DNA from: Candidatus Tepidiaquacellales bacterium OLB4/UTCHB1 | GTDB taxonomy: Bacteria > Bacteroidota > Ignavibacteria > Tepidaquicellales > Tepidaquicellaceae | Assembly (NCBI GenBank): GCA_002050165.1 | Contig: MWSW01000017.1 | Span: forward strand, 1-53,967 | Length of the DNA: 53,967 nucleotides | Direction: 5' to 3' | Shown here: positions 39,183-50,401 of the stretch, piece by piece | How positions within the stretch are numbered: position 1 is the first letter of the stretch | Layout of the letters: each line of letters opens with the position of its first letter | Translations under genes and position numbers: made by a program | The notes under the pieces: generated by a model | What the model saw: the letters and a program-made list of their open reading frames with translations, nothing else | Databases searched by the model: none | What the model was told of the DNA's origin: nothing

Positions 39183-42100
39183 TCAATCGTCAATCGTAAT
39201 TTGTTTTGATCCGTTCGTTACCGTTATTTTTTCAGGATAGGAAAAAATATCGCGCTTTTCTTTTTGCAAATAATTGCTTCTCATTTTTTCTTCCATTGCT
39301 TTTAACTTCTCTTCAATCTGTTGAACCTTTTTCCTTTTCTGGACCATATCCTCCCGATAGCGTTTCAGGAAATAACTGATAGTTTCAACTCTTATCTTAA
39401 TTGCGCCTGACGGTTTGTTTTCATCAATATCCTTGAACGAAAAATATGGAGTCCCGGACCTTTCTACAATTTCCTGAATTATTGTGTAAATTGGTGCATC
39501 GTGTCCACACTTAAAGGATGAAAGTTCAAGTGCAACGAGATTTGGATGTCGTGCAGTATACTTTGCAGCCCAAATTTTGCGTGAAGTATTTTCAGAATAA
39601 GAATTCTTCCAAACATCGGAGATATCAAACGGAGACTTAATATTACCGGCTCTGACTTCATCACCAAAAAGTTCATCAAGAATTTCAGGATTGGTTGGAA
39701 GCGCATCCTGATAGAAAACAGGATAGCCTAACTTTTGAAATTCCTCCAGTATTTCATGGTTAATACCCGGATCATTATGGTATGGTCTTGCGAGCACAAC
39801 TATCCCTATTTTCCCCTCTCTTTCAATTTCCCGTAAAACTTCAAGCGACCGTTCCTTCAATGAATTCACAAATTTGTTGTATGCTTTATAACCTTCGGCG
39901 ACTGCAAAATTATTTTCATCCTCTGAAAGTCCAAATCTGTCTTTGAATGCTTGAAACAACTGTCTCGCAGTAAGGTGTTCCGAGTTTAGCTGAATAAACG
40001 GCGATACATATTCAACTCCGAATTCTTTGAACAAATCACCTTCCTTTGTAAACGCTGCCTTAACTACTCCCATTGTTGCCGTGATTGTCGGACATGCATT
40101 GTGAGCTTGTGCATATTCAAGTTCCGACGGCATATTATCAACGATTGGCGAAAAAATAAAATCAATTTTCTTCCGTTTTGACTTTACATACAGCAGGTTG
40201 TGAACATGTGGAATCGCTACCTTTGAAGGATAACACGGATCAATACTTCCACGCTTTGCACCTGCTTTATATAATTCTTCAGTTGTATAATCTGAATAAA
40301 CAAAATTACCCGGCATAATACCCAGAGCTTCGAAGTATGCAGTAAAAAATGGATTGTGCTGATACATATTTAAAACTCTCGGTATTCCGATAACAATATT
40401 CTTTCGGTTTTCTATCAGCTCCTTCCGTTTAACATATTCCCTACGCTTTGAACCTGACACAAAAATACCTTTCGGTTCGTCAATTTGGGGATTAAATACT
40501 TCCGGTTTCCAGGAGCACCATGCAAGTTTTGCTGCTTCATCAACTATATTAGGATTTAACTTCTTAATTTCGTCTAATCCCTTTTTAATATCTTTCATAG
40601 AGCCAATATCTTCAACGGTACCTTTTTCACAGGTTGCAATAATCAAGCGCTTTGTATCTCCCGCCATAGGAACTTTGGAATTGGGATTAACAATCTCATC
40701 ATCAGAAAATTCTTTCTTATTTATGAAATCATTTTTAACTTCATCATAGGTTTTACCTTTCTCAATCTCAGTTTTAACGTCAATAAAAGTCCTGAGACAT
40801 TTATTCTTACAAAAATAGCAACGTGTATCTTCGTTCCTCGTAGTTTTAAAAATAATCTTCGAGACCTTGTCGAGACCGATGAAATCAGTTCGATGACCAA
40901 TTTTATAGAGCCGGCATGCTTCAATGGCACAACCAATTGCACCGGCTTCGCCGGTATGCTTGTGAACAAATATTTTCGGTTCGACACCACTTCCGGTGAA
41001 ACGCTCTTTGATGAAGTCAACCTGTGTTTTCACTGCAGCCAAATTATGCTGAGTTCCACCCTGAAGAACAAAATTAGATCCTAATTTTGCGAGATTCGGA
41101 ATTTGAGAAACATACAACCAGATATTTTTTGGTAGAACATTCGCCAGACCTGCCATAATTTCTTCAGGTTTCCAGCCTTGACGTTGGAAATCAACGATGT
41201 CCGACTGCATAAACACTGCACAACCATAACCAAATCGCGGATAAGCTCTTGCAGTAAACGCTATGTCAGCATATTTTTCTACCTCAAATCCAAAGGATTG
41301 TGCTGTTGACTGTAGAAAGTATCCATTACCAGCAGAGCATTGAGTATTCAATTTAAAATCCACTACCCTGCCCCGATGCAAAATTATAATTTTAATATCC
41401 TGGCCGCCAACATCACATATAACATCAGTATCAGGGTAATAATGAAGCCCCGCCTGAGTATGAGCAACAGTTTCGACAAGCGCAACATCAGCCTTTAATA
41501 CATCTTTTAAAATATCTTTTGCATAACCTGTAGTTCCAACTCCAAGAACTTCAAGAATTGCTCCTTGATCTTCAATCTGTTTTTGTATTTTCCCTATTAT
41601 CTCCATTGTATCTTCAATCGGATTCCCTTTTGAAAGCTGATATGCTTTTACGAGCACTTCGTTATCAAGAGAAAGAAGAGCTGCTTTGGTTGAAGTTGAG
41701 CCACCGTCAATACCTATGAACCCCTGCACAAGCTGACCTTTGGAAAATTCCGCCGGTTTAAATTTCCTTATGGTATATTCCCTTTTAAACTCCTCAAGTT
41801 CTTCTTCAGATTGGTACAAACCTTTATTGCTTCCACCTGAAAGAGTTTTCTTTTCAATTTCCCTGCCAACGTTAATATAATGCTCGAGCCCCTGCCATCC
41901 ACTGTATATACCTACCTCTTCACCCTCATCTTTACCAAACTCTACTGCTCCAATGGCTGCGAAGTACTGAGCATTCTCCGGAGCTTTTATAAGCTCAACT
42001 GGTGCAACACCCTCAGGTAACTGAACTTTTCGCTCTTCCCAAATTAACGGAATATTATACTTCCAACATTCCTGCATACCTTTTATATAAGTATTAGGAC

Positions 42101-42788
42101 CTCCAAGAAGTAATACCTCCGGTCGAAGAGTATGACCACGCGTTAGAACTGATATGTTTTGCTGAATGATAGATTCAAACAGTGAGGCCATAAGTTCTTC
42201 TGCAGGTACGCCGGATTTTTGCAATCCATTGATATCAGATTCAGCAAACACTCCACACTTTCCGGCAACTGGATGGAGTTTTAACCCGAGATAACCCATT
42301 TGGCAAAGTTTATCGGCGGGAATTTTCAATTTAGCATTTATCTTGTCAATCACAGCTCCTGTACCACCTGCACATTTATCGTTCATTGAAGGAATTTTTT
42401 TCTTCCTACCGGTCTCAGGATCATCTTTGAAAATGATTATCTTCGCATCCTGACCACCAAGTTCAATCACCGAGCCGGTATTCGGATAAAGCTTTTCTAC
42501 TGCGAGCGATACAGCATTTACTTCCTGGACAAATTTTGCTCCCACATATTTCCCGATATTTGCACCTCCTGACCCTGTTATAAATACTCTTAGTTCATCA
42601 GGCTTTTTTATTTCAAGATCGCTTTCAATTCGTTGAAAAAATTCGAGTGCCTTTTCCGGTTGTTTTGTATCGTGACGTTGATAGTCGCTCCACACAATTT
42701 CGTCTGTAACCACATCAACGACAATTGCCTTAACGGTTGTTGAACCGACATCGAACCCGACAAAATATTTAGTCTGCTTATCAGCCAT
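39183..42788 (-). CDS. BadF/HgdC-type acyl-CoA dehydratase activase with two ASKHA domains and DUF2229
   Basis: This 1201-residue protein has two complete activase domains in tandem. Domain 1 (about 8-285) has FDVGSTT, GGQDAK (111-116) and the cluster cysteines C139 (KCAGGTG) and C178 (CGVFAESD). Domain 2 (about 355-640) has IDGGSTS, GGQDIK, C484 (QCSAGNG) and C523 (CAVFMQSD). A CX2CX3C motif (657-664) follows, and the region from about 790 is DUF2229-like. In known systems the homodimeric activase uses ATP to push an electron from a [4Fe-4S] cluster into a 2-hydroxyacyl-CoA dehydratase or a benzoyl-CoA reductase. The true substrate of this long form is not established. It follows its putative partner by 89 bases on the same strand. 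Confidence 0.88.
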   Translation of the reverse strand: MADKQTKYFVGFDVGSTTVKAIVVDVVTDEIVWSDYQRHDTKQPEKALEFFQRIESDLEIKKPDELRVFITGSGGANIGKYVGAKFVQEVNAVSLAVEKLYPNTGSVIELGGQDAKIIIFKDDPETGRKKKIPSMNDKCAGGTGAVIDKINAKLKIPADKLCQMGYLGLKLHPVAGKCGVFAESDINGLQKSGVPAEELMASLFESIIQQNISVLTRGHTLRPEVLLLGGPNTYIKGMQECWKYNIPLIWEERKVQLPEGVAPVELIKAPENAQYFAAIGAVEFGKDEGEEVGIYSGWQGLEHYINVGREIEKKTLSGGSNKGLYQSEEELEEFKREYTIRKFKPAEFSKGQLVQGFIGIDGGSTSTKAALLSLDNEVLVKAYQLSKGNPIEDTMEIIGKIQKQIEDQGAILEVLGVGTTGYAKDILKDVLKADVALVETVAHTQAGLHYYPDTDVICDVGGQDIKIIILHRGRVVDFKLNTQCSAGNGYFLQSTAQSFGFEVEKYADIAFTARAYPRFGYGCAVFMQSDIVDFQRQGWKPEEIMAGLANVLPKNIWLYVSQIPNLAKLGSNFVLQGGTQHNLAAVKTQVDFIKERFTGSGVEPKIFVHKHTGEAGAIGCAIEACRLYKIGHRTDFIGLDKVSKIIFKTTRNEDTRCYFCKNKCLRTFIDVKTEIEKGKTYDEVKNDFINKKEFSDDEIVNPNSKVPMAGDTKRLIIATCEKGTVEDIGSMKDIKKGLDEIKKLNPNIVDEAAKLAWCSWKPEVFNPQIDEPKGIFVSGSKRREYVKRKELIENRKNIVIGIPRVLNMYQHNPFFTAYFEALGIMPGNFVYSDYTTEELYKAGAKRGSIDPCYPSKVAIPHVHNLLYVKSKRKKIDFIFSPIVDNMPSELEYAQAHNACPTITATMGVVKAAFTKEGDLFKEFGVEYVSPFIQLNSEHLTARQLFQAFKDRFGLSEDENNFAVAEGYKAYNKFVNSLKERSLEVLREIEREGKIGIVVLARPYHNDPGINHEILEEFQKLGYPVFYQDALPTNPEILDELFGDEVRAGNIKSPFDISDVWKNSYSENTSRKIWAAKYTARHPNLVALELSSFKCGHDAPIYTIIQEIVERSGTPYFSFKDIDENKPSGAIKIRVETISYFLKRYREDMVQKRKKVQQIEEKLKAMEEKMRSNYLQKEKRDIFSYPEKITVTNGSKQITIDD

Positions 42789-42877
42789 TTCAAAATAATT
42801 TTTTTTCTTTGAAAACAGATTCCCTTAATGAAATCATATTTAATACTTTTGATACTTCGTATTACAAATGTTTAAAA

Positions 42878-44659
42878 TTAAGTTGCGACAATATCTGATG
42901 TATTACCGGGTTCGATCCCGTCTTTACGCATTAATTCTGCAACATCTAAAATAAAATTTGCGCCAATCCCGGCAATTCCATCACGATGAGAGACTTTGAA
43001 AAACGGTCGCTGCAGTTCATCATGTGAACTTACATACGCGTTTATCTCTTCCAATTTATATCCGGATTTTTCAAGACACTCTTTAAATTCAAGTTTCGAT
43101 TTTGCCTTTGCTTCTCCAAGCGCCATCTGTACCCGCGAATGAGCATTAATATCACCTTCGCCGGAGGTTTCTATCGGGAGGAAAATCATCTCTTTATAAT
43201 GTGATGTTACAACAGACTGAACACCATCCGATTGAGTTGATGGCATGCAACCAAACGGTTTCAAAGAGAGAATCATATGACACAAATGATTTTCCGTATA
43301 ATAAATGCTTTTGCCCACTTCTAAGTGACCTTCACCGCCTTCAACACGTGAATGATAGAATTTATGCGCTAGGTTTGTTAATATACTTTGATCAACCAAC
43401 TCATGAGGTAGATAACCTAAAGTTTTCCTGAATCTGTTATATTCACGTTCAAATATTTTTTCAGCAAGAGATAAAATGAACTGTGATTTTTTATATTCTT
43501 TATCAATTTTAATTTTTTTAATAAAACTGACTTTCTCACCAAACTCATTCTCCAGGTCTAAGCCTTTTTCGTCATCATTGACCTTTTTCGCCTGATGGAG
43601 CATGTACATTATCCAGGTTGCAATAGGCTCGACGAGTACTTGCGCTCCTTCACGTTCCAGGAATTCAAACATATTAAAGTTTCCGTCGCCTTCTGTTGTT
43701 TGTGCCCAAAACTCGCCGGTAACTTTTACGATTGGTTTCATTTGTGTCCTGTCAACCTTAACTTCGTTGAACAAATCATAAACTTCATTCATTGTAGTTA
43801 AGTAATAATCTCCGAGTGACTGATCGAGCAATTTCATTATGTAATCAGAAGTCGGAATCTTTTTAATTAATTTACCAATCATAGAATTGAAGTCGAAATA
43901 TCGTTTTGATTTCAGCTTTTCGTAAAATAATTCAATTGCTTTTTGCATTGCTGCATTAGTTTCACCTTTGTTCACTTCATAAGGTCTTATCTGATAAGCG
44001 ATGTCATTTATGATATCGCCTATCATCATTGCGTTCAGGATTCCAAGAAAGAAATCGAGATTCATTTCAAGACCGGCTTCAGCTTCCTCTTGTGACAACC
44101 CACCTGTTTGCTGAAAGATTAACACCCGGAAACCTTCGAATCCGGAATTCCTTAGTGCAAGTCTGTATTCAGCTTCGTACATTCCAAACCTGCATGGTCC
44201 GCAAGCTCCGGCGGTAAAATAAACATAGTTGTCCAATATATCTTCGCGTGACATTCCGTTTCGCTCAAGTTCCTGAAGATATTTCACAAGGTTGCCAACT
44301 GTGAAATAAGTTGGGTTGCATTGACCGTTATTTCCGTATTCCTTACCTAATTGAAACGCCTTTTTGTCAGGTGTCGGAAGATAATCAGTTTTGTAACCCA
44401 AACCTTCAAGCGCGCCTTTGATTAACTTTTCATGTTTCCAAGTTAATCCACCGAAAAGGATGGTCGTAGTTGCCCTTTGATCTCTTGTAAAGAATCTTTC
44501 CAAAGGTCTCTTGAAATGTTCAATTGGTTTTGAATTTACACCGTGCTCTTCCTCGAGTTTCCTTCGCTCCTCAGACAACATTTTCTGAATAATTAATTCA
44601 GAATTATCGTGCCCGTTAGTAGCTGAAGTTCGGGTTGGCTTCTTTGTTAATGTTTCCAT
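42878..44659 (-). CDS. 2-hydroxyacyl-CoA-dehydratase-like (HgdB/CoA-activase C-terminal type) Fe-S protein
   Basis: The 593-residue protein has conserved cysteine segments typical of the HgdB-like partner of the long BadF activases. These are YGNNGQCNPTYFTVGNL, YFTAGACGPCRFGMYEAEY, LCHMILSLKPFGCMPSTQSDG and an FLPIETSGEGDIN end. In related organisms this region can be the C-terminal part of a single longer activase protein; here it is a separate gene. It probably carries a [4Fe-4S] cluster reduced by the activase. The ATG at 44659 has a CGGAG site. It starts 21 bases after hpnE with no terminator between, so it is likely co-transcribed with the squalene genes. Confidence 0.82.
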   Translation of the reverse strand: METLTKKPTRTSATNGHDNSELIIQKMLSEERRKLEEEHGVNSKPIEHFKRPLERFFTRDQRATTTILFGGLTWKHEKLIKGALEGLGYKTDYLPTPDKKAFQLGKEYGNNGQCNPTYFTVGNLVKYLQELERNGMSREDILDNYVYFTAGACGPCRFGMYEAEYRLALRNSGFEGFRVLIFQQTGGLSQEEAEAGLEMNLDFFLGILNAMMIGDIINDIAYQIRPYEVNKGETNAAMQKAIELFYEKLKSKRYFDFNSMIGKLIKKIPTSDYIMKLLDQSLGDYYLTTMNEVYDLFNEVKVDRTQMKPIVKVTGEFWAQTTEGDGNFNMFEFLEREGAQVLVEPIATWIMYMLHQAKKVNDDEKGLDLENEFGEKVSFIKKIKIDKEYKKSQFILSLAEKIFEREYNRFRKTLGYLPHELVDQSILTNLAHKFYHSRVEGGEGHLEVGKSIYYTENHLCHMILSLKPFGCMPSTQSDGVQSVVTSHYKEMIFLPIETSGEGDINAHSRVQMALGEAKAKSKLEFKECLEKSGYKLEEINAYVSSHDELQRPFFKVSHRDGIAGIGANFILDVAELMRKDGIEPGNTSDIVAT

Positions 44660-44680
44660 TTTAATCTCCGTAAGTTTAGA

Positions 44681-46036
44681 CTAAAAGAATTTTGAAATAT
44701 TGTATGCGCTGGTAATTGCTGATTCTATCGTTGCAGGTAATCCTGTATTTGTCCAATCGCCGGCAACGTAAAGATTTCCTATGTTACAACTTGCATCAAC
44801 TCTGTATTTGTAACTTTCATTATCAGGAATAAATGTTGCTCGTTTTTCTTTAATAACTTTCACACCTTTCAATGATAATTTTTCAATTCCATCAAAACAC
44901 AATGCGAGCTCCTTCATTGCGAGATTTGAAATATGAGCTTTCTCCTCTGCCGTAATTGTATCACCACTATCAAGTTTTATAAAATCAGAGCCACTTATTA
45001 TTAACGATAAGTGTACATTACTTCGCCTGAACACCCACTGAATTTTAGTCCCGATCAAACCGTTCATACCTAATGAATTCAGTGGAATCATAGTTTCAGG
45101 AACGGGTTCATTAAAGAATACATGTATCGAAGTAATGGATGATGCACGCAACATATCTGAATCTTTAAAATTCCCGGGATATTCTTTTTCATCAAATAAT
45201 CGTTTAAAGCTAAAAAACGGAACACCTGAAATAATAAAATCACATTCTACTGCTTCGTCATTTTCTAGAATAACAGAAGAGACATATCCATTTTCTGAAA
45301 CAATTCTTTTAACCCTCGAACCAGGTTTCAAATCAACTCCCCTGTTGCTGAGATAAGTTAACGCCGGATCAATAAACAATTTATTCAAATCTGTTTTTGG
45401 GATTATCAGGTTTGAGGTTTTTCGCCCTGAAAACCCATGTTTTAAAATTTCAACAAACATCTTCGCTGATACTTTTGTGGCTGGTGAGTTAAAGACTGCA
45501 TAGATAAATGGATTCCAAAAATATTTTCTTATACATTCCGATTGTTTTAATCTCGTCAAAAGTATATCGGCTGATACTGATAGTAGATATTCGTCATTAA
45601 ATTTTTCTACATTGATTAATCTCAAAACATGTATCAGCTTAATCTTGTCCGTTAGCCTTATTGCGTTATATTTCCATAAAGCGAAAATAATATTAAACGG
45701 AGCAATCACTCCGGGAACCTTCAGAACAAACGTTTCTCCGGAGATATCAATAAAATTAATCTCAAGATTCTCCTGAACATTTAACAGATTGGAACTTCCG
45801 ATTGTTTTTAAATAATTGAAAGTATTTTTATACCAGCCTGCAAGAATATGTTGCCCGTTATCAAAGAACGTATCGTAGTTTTTATCGAAATAACTGTAAG
45901 TTCTACCACCAAATTTAGGTGAAGCCTCTAAAATAGTAATATCATATTGATTCTCATCATCAGCGTTTTTTATGAATACAGCGGAAGATAAGCCCGCAAG
46001 CCCGCCACCTATTATTAATATTCTTTTCCTTTTCAC
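44681..46036 (-). CDS. hpnE: Hydroxysqualene dehydroxylase (HpnE-like FAD amine oxidase)
   Basis: The 451-residue flavoprotein has the dinucleotide-binding motif IIGGGLAGLSSAV at its start and the HpnE-typical KFGGRTYSY and FDNGQHILAGWY. A C-terminal FAD segment reads NLYVAGDWTNTGLPATIESAITSAY. In the bacterial three-enzyme route it reduces hydroxysqualene to squalene. It overlaps hpnD by 4 bases, and the order hpnC-hpnD-hpnE is the usual one. Carotenoid desaturases are the nearest alternative, but the neighbours favour squalene. Confidence 0.9.
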   Translation of the reverse strand: MKRKRILIIGGGLAGLSSAVFIKNADDENQYDITILEASPKFGGRTYSYFDKNYDTFFDNGQHILAGWYKNTFNYLKTIGSSNLLNVQENLEINFIDISGETFVLKVPGVIAPFNIIFALWKYNAIRLTDKIKLIHVLRLINVEKFNDEYLLSVSADILLTRLKQSECIRKYFWNPFIYAVFNSPATKVSAKMFVEILKHGFSGRKTSNLIIPKTDLNKLFIDPALTYLSNRGVDLKPGSRVKRIVSENGYVSSVILENDEAVECDFIISGVPFFSFKRLFDEKEYPGNFKDSDMLRASSITSIHVFFNEPVPETMIPLNSLGMNGLIGTKIQWVFRRSNVHLSLIISGSDFIKLDSGDTITAEEKAHISNLAMKELALCFDGIEKLSLKGVKVIKEKRATFIPDNESYKYRVDASCNIGNLYVAGDWTNTGLPATIESAITSAYNISKFF

Positions 46037-46917
46037 TGAAACTCCCGTCTTGGATCTTCAGCATTGTACAATAACTTGTATTTGTACAACGTAACAATTG
46101 CAATTCGTACTTTAGTAAATTTCGAGAGTTTTACATCGTAGTTGAGCACGTCGTAGCTTAATGCCTTAATCTTCAGAAGAATTTTATGGTAAATCTCTTC
46201 CATAATTTTCGCTGAAACCATTAATCCCTTATCTTCACTTTTTAAATAACTGTTCGCAATATCATAATAGCGCTCCGCACGTTTATATTGATAGTTCATT
46301 AAATCCCTGAACTCACGATTGTACTTATTCTCAAAAAGCATTTTCTCAGTGTAACCAAATTTCGCCATTTCATCCAGAGGGAGATAAATCCTGTTTTTAA
46401 CTGAATCGGTTTTTACATCCCGCATAATATTGGTTAGTTGAAGCGCAACCCCAAGATTCATTGCATATTTTTTCGTGTCTTGAGAATGATAACCAAAAAC
46501 TTCGAGACACATCAGACCAACAGTTGCAGCAACTTTGTAACAGTATTCTTTCAGTTCTGAAAAATCATTGAACCTGTTCTTTTTAATGTCCATTTCCATA
46601 CCGTCTATCAAATCGTGAAAGGGTTCAACAGGTATTGAAAACTTCCGTCGGATTAAATCTACTTTCTCAATAAACGTGTCCTCATAAATTCCACTGATTG
46701 CCTTAGTAAATTTCTCTCTCCACTCATCGAGATTTTTAAGTTTCTCATCCGGTGAATGCTTATCATTATCAACTATGTCATCAGTCTTCCTACAGAAAGC
46801 ATAGATTGTGTTTAGTGCGTCATTTTTCTCCCCTGAAAGTACTGAAAATGAGTAAAGGAAATTTGTATTGCTCGACTCTGCTACTTTACGGTGTTCATCT
46901 TTAAATGAATCTTTCAT
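46033..46917 (-). CDS. hpnD: Presqualene diphosphate synthase
   Basis: The 294-residue all-helical prenyl synthase has the two aspartate-rich motifs that bind Mg-diphosphate: the first in AFCRKTDDIVDND (about 43-55), the second in LTNIMRDVKTDSVKNR. YNREFRDLMNYQYKRAERYY is typical of the HpnD branch of squalene/phytoene synthases. It joins two farnesyl diphosphates into presqualene diphosphate, the first committed step. It overlaps both neighbours by 4 bases, so the three squalene genes are tightly coupled. A phytoene synthase is the alternative, disfavoured by the hpnC and hpnE neighbours. Confidence 0.91.
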   Translation of the reverse strand: MKDSFKDEHRKVAESSNTNFLYSFSVLSGEKNDALNTIYAFCRKTDDIVDNDKHSPDEKLKNLDEWREKFTKAISGIYEDTFIEKVDLIRRKFSIPVEPFHDLIDGMEMDIKKNRFNDFSELKEYCYKVAATVGLMCLEVFGYHSQDTKKYAMNLGVALQLTNIMRDVKTDSVKNRIYLPLDEMAKFGYTEKMLFENKYNREFRDLMNYQYKRAERYYDIANSYLKSEDKGLMVSAKIMEEIYHKILLKIKALSYDVLNYDVKLSKFTKVRIAIVTLYKYKLLYNAEDPRREFQ

Positions 46918-47795
46918 AAACCTGGGAGTAAAGTTTTACAAGCAATTTTAAATTTACCGGCATTATTCAGCGTTACACGGTTTTTCAGAACCCGGTAATC
47001 AATGCTTCTGATCAAATCCAAAATATAATTCCCACCAAGATACGTTGCCTTTAATTCTAATCTGAGCCTGCCTTTAACTTCATTTAGGATTGGAGCTCCA
47101 CTTTTGAAAATATCTTCAGTTTGATGTATGAGCGACCCAATCATCCTGATAAAATTATTGTTTTCCCTACCAGCAAAAAGATCATCGTATGAGTATCCAA
47201 ATTTTTTCATCTCAGTTGAGGGAATATATACCCTGTTTAAAGTCAAATCTACCGATACGTCCTGCCAGAAATTTGTGAGTTGCAGCGCAGTACAAATTCT
47301 ATCGGAATATGAAAATAAATTCATATCCCTTGACTCATCGTAACCAAATATTGTCAGGACAATACGTCCAACCGGATTTGCTGATCTTGAAGAATAATCC
47401 GTTAATTCTTCAAAAGTATCGTATCGGTTTTTAACAGAATCCTGTTTGAAAGCAGAAAGTAAATCTGTAAGATAAGTTAACGGAATTTTACCCTTATCTA
47501 TCGTATAAAAAAGCGCAGGCAAAAATTTACTAAATCCAAAACTATCCGGATTTAGATTTCCGGATACAAGCATTTCATTTAGTGAATTAAGTTTCTCTAG
47601 TTTCTCTTCCTGCAAATACTCCGGGTTGTCAGCAATATCGTCTGCGCTTCTTGCAAATGCGTAAATTGAGTAAACTAAATCTCTCTTATTTTTCGGAACC
47701 AGAATTGAACCTACAGGAAAATTCTCGTAATGAGATTTTGCAAGGTCCCTGCAATATTTCAAAGAGCGAATAACTATGTCATTCTCTGTGACCAA
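46914..47795 (-). CDS. hpnC: Hydroxysqualene synthase
   Basis: The 293-residue protein is a squalene/phytoene-synthase fold enzyme with the HpnC-typical opening ENFPVGSILVPKNKRDLVYS. AFARSADDIADNPE and LTNFWQDVSVDLTLNRVYIP are the two metal-binding regions. HpnC converts presqualene diphosphate to hydroxysqualene. Its ATG at 47795 has a GAGA site a few bases upstream and it leads the hpnCDE set. Squalene is a precursor of hopanoids or sterols, but no squalene cyclase is in the window. Confidence 0.9.
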   Translation of the reverse strand: MVTENDIVIRSLKYCRDLAKSHYENFPVGSILVPKNKRDLVYSIYAFARSADDIADNPEYLQEEKLEKLNSLNEMLVSGNLNPDSFGFSKFLPALFYTIDKGKIPLTYLTDLLSAFKQDSVKNRYDTFEELTDYSSRSANPVGRIVLTIFGYDESRDMNLFSYSDRICTALQLTNFWQDVSVDLTLNRVYIPSTEMKKFGYSYDDLFAGRENNNFIRMIGSLIHQTEDIFKSGAPILNEVKGRLRLELKATYLGGNYILDLIRSIDYRVLKNRVTLNNAGKFKIACKTLLPGL

Positions 47796-48340: not shown

Positions 48341-48375
48341 TTAAAGCGGGACAATACTACCTGGTCCCGCTTTAA
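48341..48375 (-). terminator. Strong hairpin after a T9SS cargo gene, no T-tract
   Basis: TTAAAGCGGGAC (48341-48352) and GTCCCGCTTTAA (48364-48375) form a perfect 12-base stem with an 11-base loop, 6 bases after the stop of the minus-strand gene ending at 48382. On the minus strand it is followed by A residues rather than T, so termination would have to work without the usual U-tract. Confidence 0.65.
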
Positions 48376-48381
48376 TTAAAA

Positions 48382-50388
48382 TTACTTTACCAAAAGCATT
48401 CTTCGTGTTGATACAAAACCTTCAGTTCTCAACGAATAAAAATAAACTCCACTGGGTAGCCGTGATGCATCAAATATAATTGAATGGTTCCCCGACTTCA
48501 TAAAACCCTCTGCGAGTTCGTAAATATCATTACCCAGCACGTCAAATACTTTTAGGGAAATTTTTGTATCAACGGGTAACGAAAATTTAATTTCGGTCGT
48601 TGGATTAAACGGATTCGGGAAATTCTGATACAAACTGTATTCTTCCGGTATTTCCGTTTCTGTTTGATGTACACCTACTGTATTAGTAACTACAAGTTGA
48701 AAGCTCCTGGTATGAATTCGAACATTATTATTTTCCGTTCCGGTAACATTTATAGTGTAATTACCAAGTGGTACATCTCCCGATACTTGATATGCAATTT
48801 CAGTTGAGCCGGGAAAAGTACTCACAGTACTTTGAGAAAATGTTAACCCGATTGTCCCGCTTGAGGGTACAGGGGTAACGTTCGCGGTGAAGTTTACGGT
48901 TCCGCTATACGGTCCCATTACAGGCAACTGTACTGTGTTAGACTTTTGACCACCAGGTGCAACCGAATCGGAGGACTTTGAAAATTGAATACCGAAATCG
49001 GGTAATTGCGCAGTAAAAGCGTCAAGCGTATTGAATCGTCCATCAGTCCAATACGGAAGTACGACACTTTTGCCTGAAATTTCCTGGTAATCACCGAGAT
49101 ACTTTGCTTCCCCGCTACCCTGACCAACCGCGACACTGTTCGGATTGAATGGCTGGTTTGAAACTTTAATGTTTGCTTGAAATGATACTCCACCGTCAGT
49201 TGAAACGGCGCAATAAGTTTCAGTTAGAAGATTATTGGGATCATTTCTTGAATCGTACCACATTACCCAGACCCATCCGTTATTATCCACGCATACATCA
49301 GGCATCCACTGATCTCGTAAATTTCCGAAAGCATCATCATTTACCCTTACCGGTGAAAATGTATTCCAAGAGACTCCACCATCAGTTGACCTTACCATAA
49401 ATATATCTGCTACATCCGGACCGGGTGGATTAGTACCATACACCATATAAACATTACCGCGGTGGGGACCATTTGATAAATCACATGCGAGCATGGGAAA
49501 CCCGTTAACCCTTATATTATTTTTAAGCACGTATCTTCCAACTGAGGAGTTAAATGTACCCGGATCGCTGTATGATCCGGCTATACCACCCAAATCAAAC
49601 GACACTCCACCGTTTGTGGAAACTTTACAAAAAGATTCGCTTCCCCCTCTCCATGCAAGATAAACTCTCCCATCAGGGCCGACTGCAATATTTGAACCTT
49701 GTGCATTCCCGGGCCCAAAGATTGTAACCGGAGTTGACCATGTGATGCCCTGGTCAGTACTTCGTAAAAACCGGATTCTTACAGGTTGAGAAAAATCACT
49801 GTAAGACATATAAAGGTTATTTGAATATGGACCACCGGTTTGATCGGCAACCATCCACTCTTTATCAACTCCACCGCTCTGAACAAAAGCATCACCAAGA
49901 TTTACCCAATTCGCGCCTTTGTTAGTAGATTTATAAACTCTGATTGTAACAATTTGTCCACCCGATTGTCTCATAGCGCAATAATAAGCATTCCCAAGGC
50001 TGTCGAAACACACTACAGGGTCACCTGCATTAAAAAATGTACTTGTTCGGGTCCAGTTCCTTCCACCGTCAGTAGTATAGTACATATTTAACGATGACAT
50101 AACTGACCCGTTATCTGTTGCAACAAAGTTCAGCGGATCTCTTGGATTTACCGCTATGGTAGTTTCTGCAAACCCGGGTGAAAGTGTTACTTCGATATTA
50201 TCGAATGGTCCAACAGATACAACCGCATCGGTTTCAGATGGTACCTGCTTAAACGGTGGATAAACTTTTTTCACCAGAGGTTTTTGAATGAAATCTGCAG
50301 GAGGTTGAATTTGGTCGGGATCAATCTGAGAAAATATTGTTTGCGAGAAGAAAAGTGATACAATTACCACCAAGAAATTCGTTTTCAT
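48382..50388 (-). CDS. Secreted T9SS cargo protein, sialidase-like Asp-box propeller
   Basis: The 668-residue protein (ATG at 50388; a TTG precedes it directly) has a signal peptide (residues 1-21, ending TIFSQ). A propeller with about six Asp boxes follows (TDGGRNW, TNKGANW, TDQGITW, TNGGVSF, TDGGVSW, TDGGVSF), with VAVGPDGRVYLAWRG-like strands between them. A beta-sandwich linker (about 480-575) and a type A sorting domain (about 580-668; NFPNPFNP, LKVFDVLGND, PSGVYFYSLR) complete it. An extracellular sialidase-like or adhesive role is possible, but the Arg triad of sialidases cannot be assigned by eye. A perfect hairpin follows the stop. Confidence 0.9.
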   Translation of the reverse strand: MKTNFLVVIVSLFFSQTIFSQIDPDQIQPPADFIQKPLVKKVYPPFKQVPSETDAVVSVGPFDNIEVTLSPGFAETTIAVNPRDPLNFVATDNGSVMSSLNMYYTTDGGRNWTRTSTFFNAGDPVVCFDSLGNAYYCAMRQSGGQIVTIRVYKSTNKGANWVNLGDAFVQSGGVDKEWMVADQTGGPYSNNLYMSYSDFSQPVRIRFLRSTDQGITWSTPVTIFGPGNAQGSNIAVGPDGRVYLAWRGGSESFCKVSTNGGVSFDLGGIAGSYSDPGTFNSSVGRYVLKNNIRVNGFPMLACDLSNGPHRGNVYMVYGTNPPGPDVADIFMVRSTDGGVSWNTFSPVRVNDDAFGNLRDQWMPDVCVDNNGWVWVMWYDSRNDPNNLLTETYCAVSTDGGVSFQANIKVSNQPFNPNSVAVGQGSGEAKYLGDYQEISGKSVVLPYWTDGRFNTLDAFTAQLPDFGIQFSKSSDSVAPGGQKSNTVQLPVMGPYSGTVNFTANVTPVPSSGTIGLTFSQSTVSTFPGSTEIAYQVSGDVPLGNYTINVTGTENNNVRIHTRSFQLVVTNTVGVHQTETEIPEEYSLYQNFPNPFNPTTEIKFSLPVDTKISLKVFDVLGNDIYELAEGFMKSGNHSIIFDASRLPSGVYFYSLRTEGFVSTRRMLLVK

Positions 50389-50401
50389 CAAATGAGATTT
50401 T

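Follow-up and report, generated by a model that had tools for sequence, protein, structure and literature searches.

Why should genes for squalene synthesis run directly into genes for an activase and an HgdB-like protein? The question is raised by contig MWSW01000017.1 of Candidatus Tepidiaquacellales bacterium OLB4/UTCHB1 (53,967 nucleotides; this whole stretch is the window), where positions 39,183-47,795 hold hpnC, hpnD, hpnE, a gene for a 593-amino-acid (aa) HgdB-like protein (HGD) and a gene for a 1201-aa activase-type protein (ACT), all on the minus strand (Table 1). From the layout, a preliminary description had suggested that the two halves might be linked by the reduction or dehydration of an isoprenoid or by another shared anaerobic function. 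We find it probable that the run is a membrane-lipid operon in which squalene and ether phospholipids are made together; judged by the kinship of their sequences, HGD and ACT very probably turn phospholipid ester bonds into ether bonds.

The best reading of the pair is an enzyme of the PlsA/PlsR and Ger type, which its sequence matches over the full length and at the conserved cysteines. In C. perfringens, plsA and plsR convert sn-1 acyl esters into vinyl ethers, and orthologues are present in Listeria (PMC9702350, PMC12838417; here and below, papers are cited from partial text). Ger is a glycerol ester reductase (PMC11150832) that was first proposed for Thermotoga maritima (PMC8788747). Aligned with a 1484-aa one-piece protein of Listeria, presumably the orthologue reported in print, ACT matched over residues 13-622 (E 7e-97) and 631-994 (E 1e-27) and HGD over residues 982-1417 (23% identity, E 6e-27). 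Since the pair aligns across the whole Listeria protein, it corresponds to that protein divided between its two reductase domains, Red1 and Red2, and the gene for the Red2 piece comes first. The pair was also collinear with one-piece proteins of Acetoanaerobium, Collinsella and Haliovirga and with a two-piece Fusobacterium pair; six of the 10 matching records in the plasmid collection were retrieved.

ACT matched PF01869 twice and TIGR00241, as expected of an activase of the BCR/HAD family, and its two activase domains are a feature of Ger (PMC13274423). The earlier label "activase" was right for these domains and incomplete for the protein, which has two BadF/BadG ATPase domains plus DUF2229. 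Over the two genes, the domains follow the plan Act1-Act2-Red1-Red2 named for PlsA/PlsR (PMC12838417). Two activase domains, a linker, Red1 and Red2 are shared with the two-gene operon of C. perfringens and the one-piece proteins of Enterococcus, Lactococcus and Bifidobacterium, and the cysteines conserved here are those of the Listeria-type proteins compared: a pair in each activase domain, four in the linker and three in each reductase domain. In a mixed set of chosen sequences (13 for ACT and 14 for HGD, with a Paraclostridium protein left out), all eleven ACT cysteines, including both activase pairs, were kept in 13/13 and the three of HGD in 14/14. Among split-type sequences, the HGD cysteines were invariant in 35/35 and those of Red1 in 30/30. 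Red1 and Red2 each have the dehydratase-subunit fold and three cluster-type cysteines of the BCR/HAD family, with weak fold support for Red2. The linker is a possible extra iron-sulfur site, at which its four cysteines would serve as ligands.

Table 1. Features of the squalene and reductase gene run and its upstream side (positions in the window).
Feature	Position	Strand	Remarks
Hairpin AAAGCGGGAC...GTCCCGCTTT	48343..48373	-	read directly in the sequence
Small open reading frame, 146 aa	47823..48263	-	GTG start; hydrophobic by eye; 27 bases before hpnC; family alignment
hpnC, hydroxysqualene synthase type	46914..47795	-	TTG start; NCBIfam TIGR03464, 274.4 bits (cut-off 250.45)
hpnD, presqualene diphosphate synthase type	46033..46917	-	TIGR03465, 264.6 bits (cut-off 278.6); PF00494
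hpnE, hydroxysqualene dehydroxylase type	44681..46036	-	GTG start; TIGR03467, 279.5 bits (cut-off 283.05), full length
HGD, Red2 / PlsR-like reductase subunit, 593 aa	42878..44659	-	Cys114, Cys156, Cys471
ACT, PlsA-like subunit, 1201 aa	39183..42788	-	activase 1, activase 2, four-Cys linker, Red1; PF01869 twice, PF09989 (DUF2229)
ACT activase domain 1, residues 8-230	42099..42767	-	Cys139, Cys178
ACT activase domain 2, residues 358-623	40920..41717	-	Cys484, Cys523
ACT linker	40629..40820	-	Cys657, Cys660, Cys664, Cys720; kept in 13/13
ACT Red1, dehydratase-like domain (DUF2229 onward)	39477..40391	-	Cys852, Cys899, Cys1094; PF09989 at residues 800-1029

A two-gene form is thus known among PlsA/PlsR proteins. 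The split pair differs from them in its length (1794 aa in all, 21-28% longer than the Listeria and Fusobacterium proteins), in having R before A, in an identity of only about 30%, and in lying behind hpnCDE, whereas PlsA/PlsR lie behind a TetR-type regulator. Ger of T. maritima and Desulfatibacillum alkenivorans is likewise PlsA-like with two activase domains according to its published description; the comparison with the pair is by that description only, and an alkyl ether product is not assignable by sequence.

HGD had no Pfam or NCBIfam match, and a PDB sequence search gave chance-level matches only. Fold models were predicted with a local distance difference test score (pLDDT) of 75 for HGD and 82 for the C-terminal part of ACT. 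The nine top rows for Red1 were chains of BzdNO, 2-hydroxyisocaproyl-CoA dehydratase, DCCP and MbdON (Z 9.8-12.6 over 259-277 residues), and the next, unrelated row reached Z 9.1 over 119 residues. The same chains filled the seven top rows for HGD with weak, near-background scores (Z 7.0-8.5 over 269-286 residues; next row 6.2), and the HGD model gave no Foldseek E under 0.001, so for this subunit we place the weight on the sequence match. Because the folds match exactly such enzymes and the identity to PlsA-type references is low, the pair might be another member of the BCR/HAD family, such as a CoA-thioester dehydratase or a double-cubane-like reductase, with an unrelated substrate. We consider this unlikely: solved members (7yyl, 9gai) have activase and reductase as separate short chains, whereas here Act1, Act2, the linker and Red1 form one chain beside a separate Red2, which is the PlsA-type plan with its cysteines, and the genome has another activase cluster elsewhere. 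Identity as a benzoyl-CoA reductase was rejected, since that separate cluster has aromatic-degradation-like neighbors and the pair has the PlsA-type plan. The second cluster (L063, G000:C8:294000-313900) contains alcohol-dehydrogenase-like, 364-aa hydrolase-like and enoyl-CoA-hydratase-like open reading frames (ORFs), named by eye from their sequences, and looks like one for anaerobic aromatic (benzoyl-CoA) degradation.

The link between hpnCDE and the enzyme, which had been drawn from layout, proved to be real when the neighborhood was surveyed in related genomes. Among 44 genomes of the order, in which only more than a short FAD-domain match was counted as a real HpnE, 37 have HpnE (24/29 in the family of the window and 13/15 in a second family). 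In 34 of these 37 the enzyme follows hpnE on the same strand, as the split pair in 24 and as a one-piece gene (~1430 aa) in 10; the G034 junction was taken from match coordinates only. The other three are undecided: about 350 bases between hpnE and the contig end hold no HGD in G001, the contig ends in G016, and G043, which is 64% complete, has a truncated HpnE match. Because order and strand recur across the order, the run is more than chance. Of the 24 loci with both genes, 23 have the split pair at -20 to 99 bases from hpnE, and all ten one-piece loci have the enzyme gene at -17 to +18 bases. Unlike the hpnE junction, that between HGD and ACT has opened to 0.45-7 kb in eight genomes.

The genome bin G036 carries two copies of the hpn-HGD-ACT operon (L051 and L068); in one copy hpnE and HGD are 3.4 kb apart, with two ORFs inserted. 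This may reflect duplication or mixed strains. In G004 the one-piece gene appears as two overlapping frames, which were taken without correction. At L157 (G014), the one-piece enzyme is directly followed by a second squalene/phytoene-synthase-like gene (298 aa).

The split and one-piece versions are deeply diverged (22-28% identical) and nevertheless occupy one chromosomal site. Past the enzyme, on the opposite strand, a 137-aa ORF also present in the window (orf137) and/or secA was found in seven split loci (G000, G009, G010, G013, G016, G021 and G022) and eight one-piece loci (G004, G007, G008, G015, G019, G023, G025 and G028), all within the family of the window. Apart from two split genomes discussed below, the remaining loci of this family stop at contig ends downstream of the enzyme. 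A secA tree parts the split genomes (6 rows; clade support 99/97) from the one-piece genomes (8 rows), which is compatible with one exchange of enzyme form; the hpnE tree was poorly resolved. Since so diverged a version sits at the same site, the link has outlived an enzyme swap.

This bears on the possibility that the halves are neighbors by inheritance only: they would have come together by chance in the order's ancestor and have no functional connection. Such a history would account for a link that is limited, among the genomes examined, to one order, and for two parts that are separable (see below). Its probability is low in our view, because the junction was kept with the other enzyme version in ten genomes at overlapping or near-zero spacing, while the gaps described above arose between the two enzyme genes themselves. 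In the second family the one-piece gene occurs in seven genomes. Six of these also carry all or part of the split pair, and wherever HpnE is present (five genomes) the one-piece gene lies on another contig than hpnE.

A 29-row unrooted tree places the enzyme among its relatives. The split subfamily forms one clade (100/100), and a second branch with 100/100 support joins it with the Listeria, Acetoanaerobium, Collinsella, Fusobacterium and Haliovirga proteins. On the opposite side of that branch lie the Ignavibacteria one-piece type, the Paraclostridium protein and a second Acidobacteria copy. The tree has long branches, and its rows contain neither a tested PlsA nor other activase-type enzymes.

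In the loci surveyed outside the order, the pair has no squalene genes nearby. Of 395 genomes sampled evenly across the phylum, four had a match to the 593-aa protein with E 1e-30 or better, and three of these four belong to this order. Named genomes were also scanned, and the best 80 of 404 relatives were evaluated: 61 loci in outside groups and 19 (L075-L093) on contigs of Ignavibacteria or Bacteroidetes metagenome-assembled genomes (MAGs), which largely repeat genomes already counted. Among these best 80, the 61 outside loci are mostly from Acidobacteria (Bryobacterales, Terriglobia, Solibacter-like), the remainder from Poribacteria, Dadabacteria, a Thermoleophilia and a Zixibacteria MAG. 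The large partner lies downstream on the same strand in 58 of the 61; of the other three, L112 and L113 stop within 0.9 kb, and the 2.0 kb downstream in L109 hold no partner. The upstream flank reaches at least 5 kb in 41 of the 61, and 21 of these also have at least 8.5 kb downstream. For Solibacter usitatus, a maker of branched tetraethers, PlsAR homologues have been proposed for its ether bonds (PMC10087280). In the same best 80 of 404, Bryobacterales and Solibacter-like genomes have the split pair with R before A and a small subunit that is 57-62% identical, and the S. usitatus PlsAR proteins are presumably of this type; the Solibacter-like pairs differ in having no hpn genes nearby. One Acidobacteriales contig carries, next to the split pair and on the opposite strand (L154:4154-8592, minus strand), a further diverged PlsR/PlsA-like pair of 453 and 1046 aa.

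Several observations weigh against the membrane-lipid operon and the assignment of its enzyme. (i) Identity to the reference proteins is only 25-33% for the large and 20-23% for the small subunit, and the references are PlsA-type homologues with no biochemically tested PlsA or Ger among them. (ii) PlsA and Ger cannot be distinguished by sequence alone (PMC13274423, PMC11868695). (iii) The one-piece type lies in a clade that is more distant again and has long branches; the nearby Paraclostridium protein did not match the small subunit significantly (E 0.84). (iv) The split genomes G006 and G018 have different downstream flank genes. (v) Of 15 related genomes outside the order, 13 have HpnE over the cut-off; ten of these carry neither enzyme form, and the other three have one on a different contig. 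(vi) No hpn genes lie near the pair in any of the 61 outside loci (best 80 of 404). (vii) Among the titles listed by literature searches, none showed lipid data (ether lipids included) for Ignavibacteria or an hpn-pls link, a weak absence given that subscription papers lay mostly outside the search.

The last of these gene counts also bear on the isoprenoid step of the preliminary description. G023 and G025 keep the one-piece enzyme at its site although hpnCDE is missing there and neither genome has a real HpnE; since HpnE also occurs without the enzyme in the ten genomes outside the order, the halves are separable and are unlikely to catalyze consecutive steps. A pair that reduces or dehydrates an isoprenoid (for example, by hydrogenating squalene or a squalene-derived lipid) or that gives HpnE low-potential electrons would suit the tight conserved junction in both enzyme forms, the reductant that HpnE dehydroxylation needs, and the lack of a cyclase for squalene to go to. 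We nonetheless regard it as very unlikely, because of the one-piece enzyme kept without hpnCDE, the split pair without hpn genes in other groups, HpnE without either enzyme form, and the collinearity of the pair with PlsA-type lipid ester reductases. The broader suggestion of a shared anaerobic function survives in part, since both halves would make membrane lipids.

HpnC, HpnD and HpnE have known family functions in making squalene from farnesyl diphosphate. All three are encoded here in pathway order; HpnD and HpnE score slightly below their NCBIfam cut-offs, yet are full length with the named family scoring best. The three enzymes and their order are those of hopanoid producers, from which the locus differs in having an ether-lipid-type reductase behind hpnE and no squalene cyclase or HpnH over the cut-off. 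A squalene cyclase (TIGR01787) was over the cut-off in 0/59 genomes, with no match in this genome and one weak partial in G056; as a control, the model matched in 2 of 14 named genomes and was over the cut-off in one. HpnH (45 bits; cut-off 225) and a CrtI-type enzyme (33 bits; cut-off 238) were far below threshold in this genome. We therefore rejected hopanoid or C30 carotenoid use of squalene, and because no cyclase exceeded the cut-off, squalene itself, or some derivative of it, is the likely end product.

In the membrane-lipid operon that we favor, HpnC, HpnD and HpnE would convert farnesyl diphosphate to squalene, while the last two genes would encode one enzyme of the PlsA/PlsR-Ger kind in two pieces and in reversed order. 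ATP hydrolysis by both activase domains would drive a very-low-potential electron through an iron-sulfur relay into Red1/Red2. There the carbonyl of a phospholipid acyl ester would be reduced with loss of water, so that a vinyl (plasmalogen) or alkyl ether is formed. The membrane would receive squalene and ether lipids jointly and not sequentially, presumably from a common transcript.

The enzyme kind itself is already known. What looks new is its link to squalene synthesis, the split and reversed subfamily in the order, and the occurrence of either this subfamily or a distant one-piece version at the same site. "CoA activase plus HgdB-like" genes beside squalene genes thereby gain a concrete, testable job, and Ignavibacteriales and several uncultured groups become candidate bacterial makers of ether lipids, whose sources are an open question for lipid biomarkers. 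Squalene without a cyclase may be an end product tuned jointly with the ether lipids, and the run as a whole suggests an unstudied mode of joint membrane building in one little-studied order. Tentatively, Ignavibacteriales may have a hopanoid-free membrane of squalene and branched alkyl or vinyl ether phospholipids made from one operon, with the kind of enzyme by which Solibacter-like Acidobacteria would form tetraethers, and may hence be unrecognized natural sources of ether lipids.

The fine layout was as the preliminary description had it: hpnC/hpnD and hpnD/hpnE overlap by 4 bases each, 21 bases separate hpnE from HGD, and 89 bases separate HGD from ACT. Its statement that no terminator follows hpnE also held, as neither gap contained a terminator-like match; across the region such matches numbered 5, against 6.8 expected in shuffles. 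Promoter-like matches were likewise at shuffle level (26 found, 30.4 expected), one of which (minus strand, 42793-42764) overlaps the end of the 89-base gap. This gap folds no better than shuffles (z -0.22). On the upstream side, the gene at 48382-50391 has its stop directly before the hairpin of Table 1, which separates this gene from the operon; the hairpin has no T-run after it and, though within range of the terminator scan, was not listed by it.

The gene run includes the 146-aa ORF as an additional gene at its head. Members of its family, which have FYRK..YW and DP motifs in common in the family alignment, precede hpnC in 19 of the 21 split-type loci with a visible upstream side (missing in G006 and G018); one relative was scanned and had no Pfam match. 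The ORF was not seen before hpnC in the seven one-piece loci with a visible upstream side. In L049, L051, L058 and L068, a protein of 100-104 aa (the same as L085:2899-3201) is inserted between hpnD and hpnE, and the one copy scanned matches an ABM domain.

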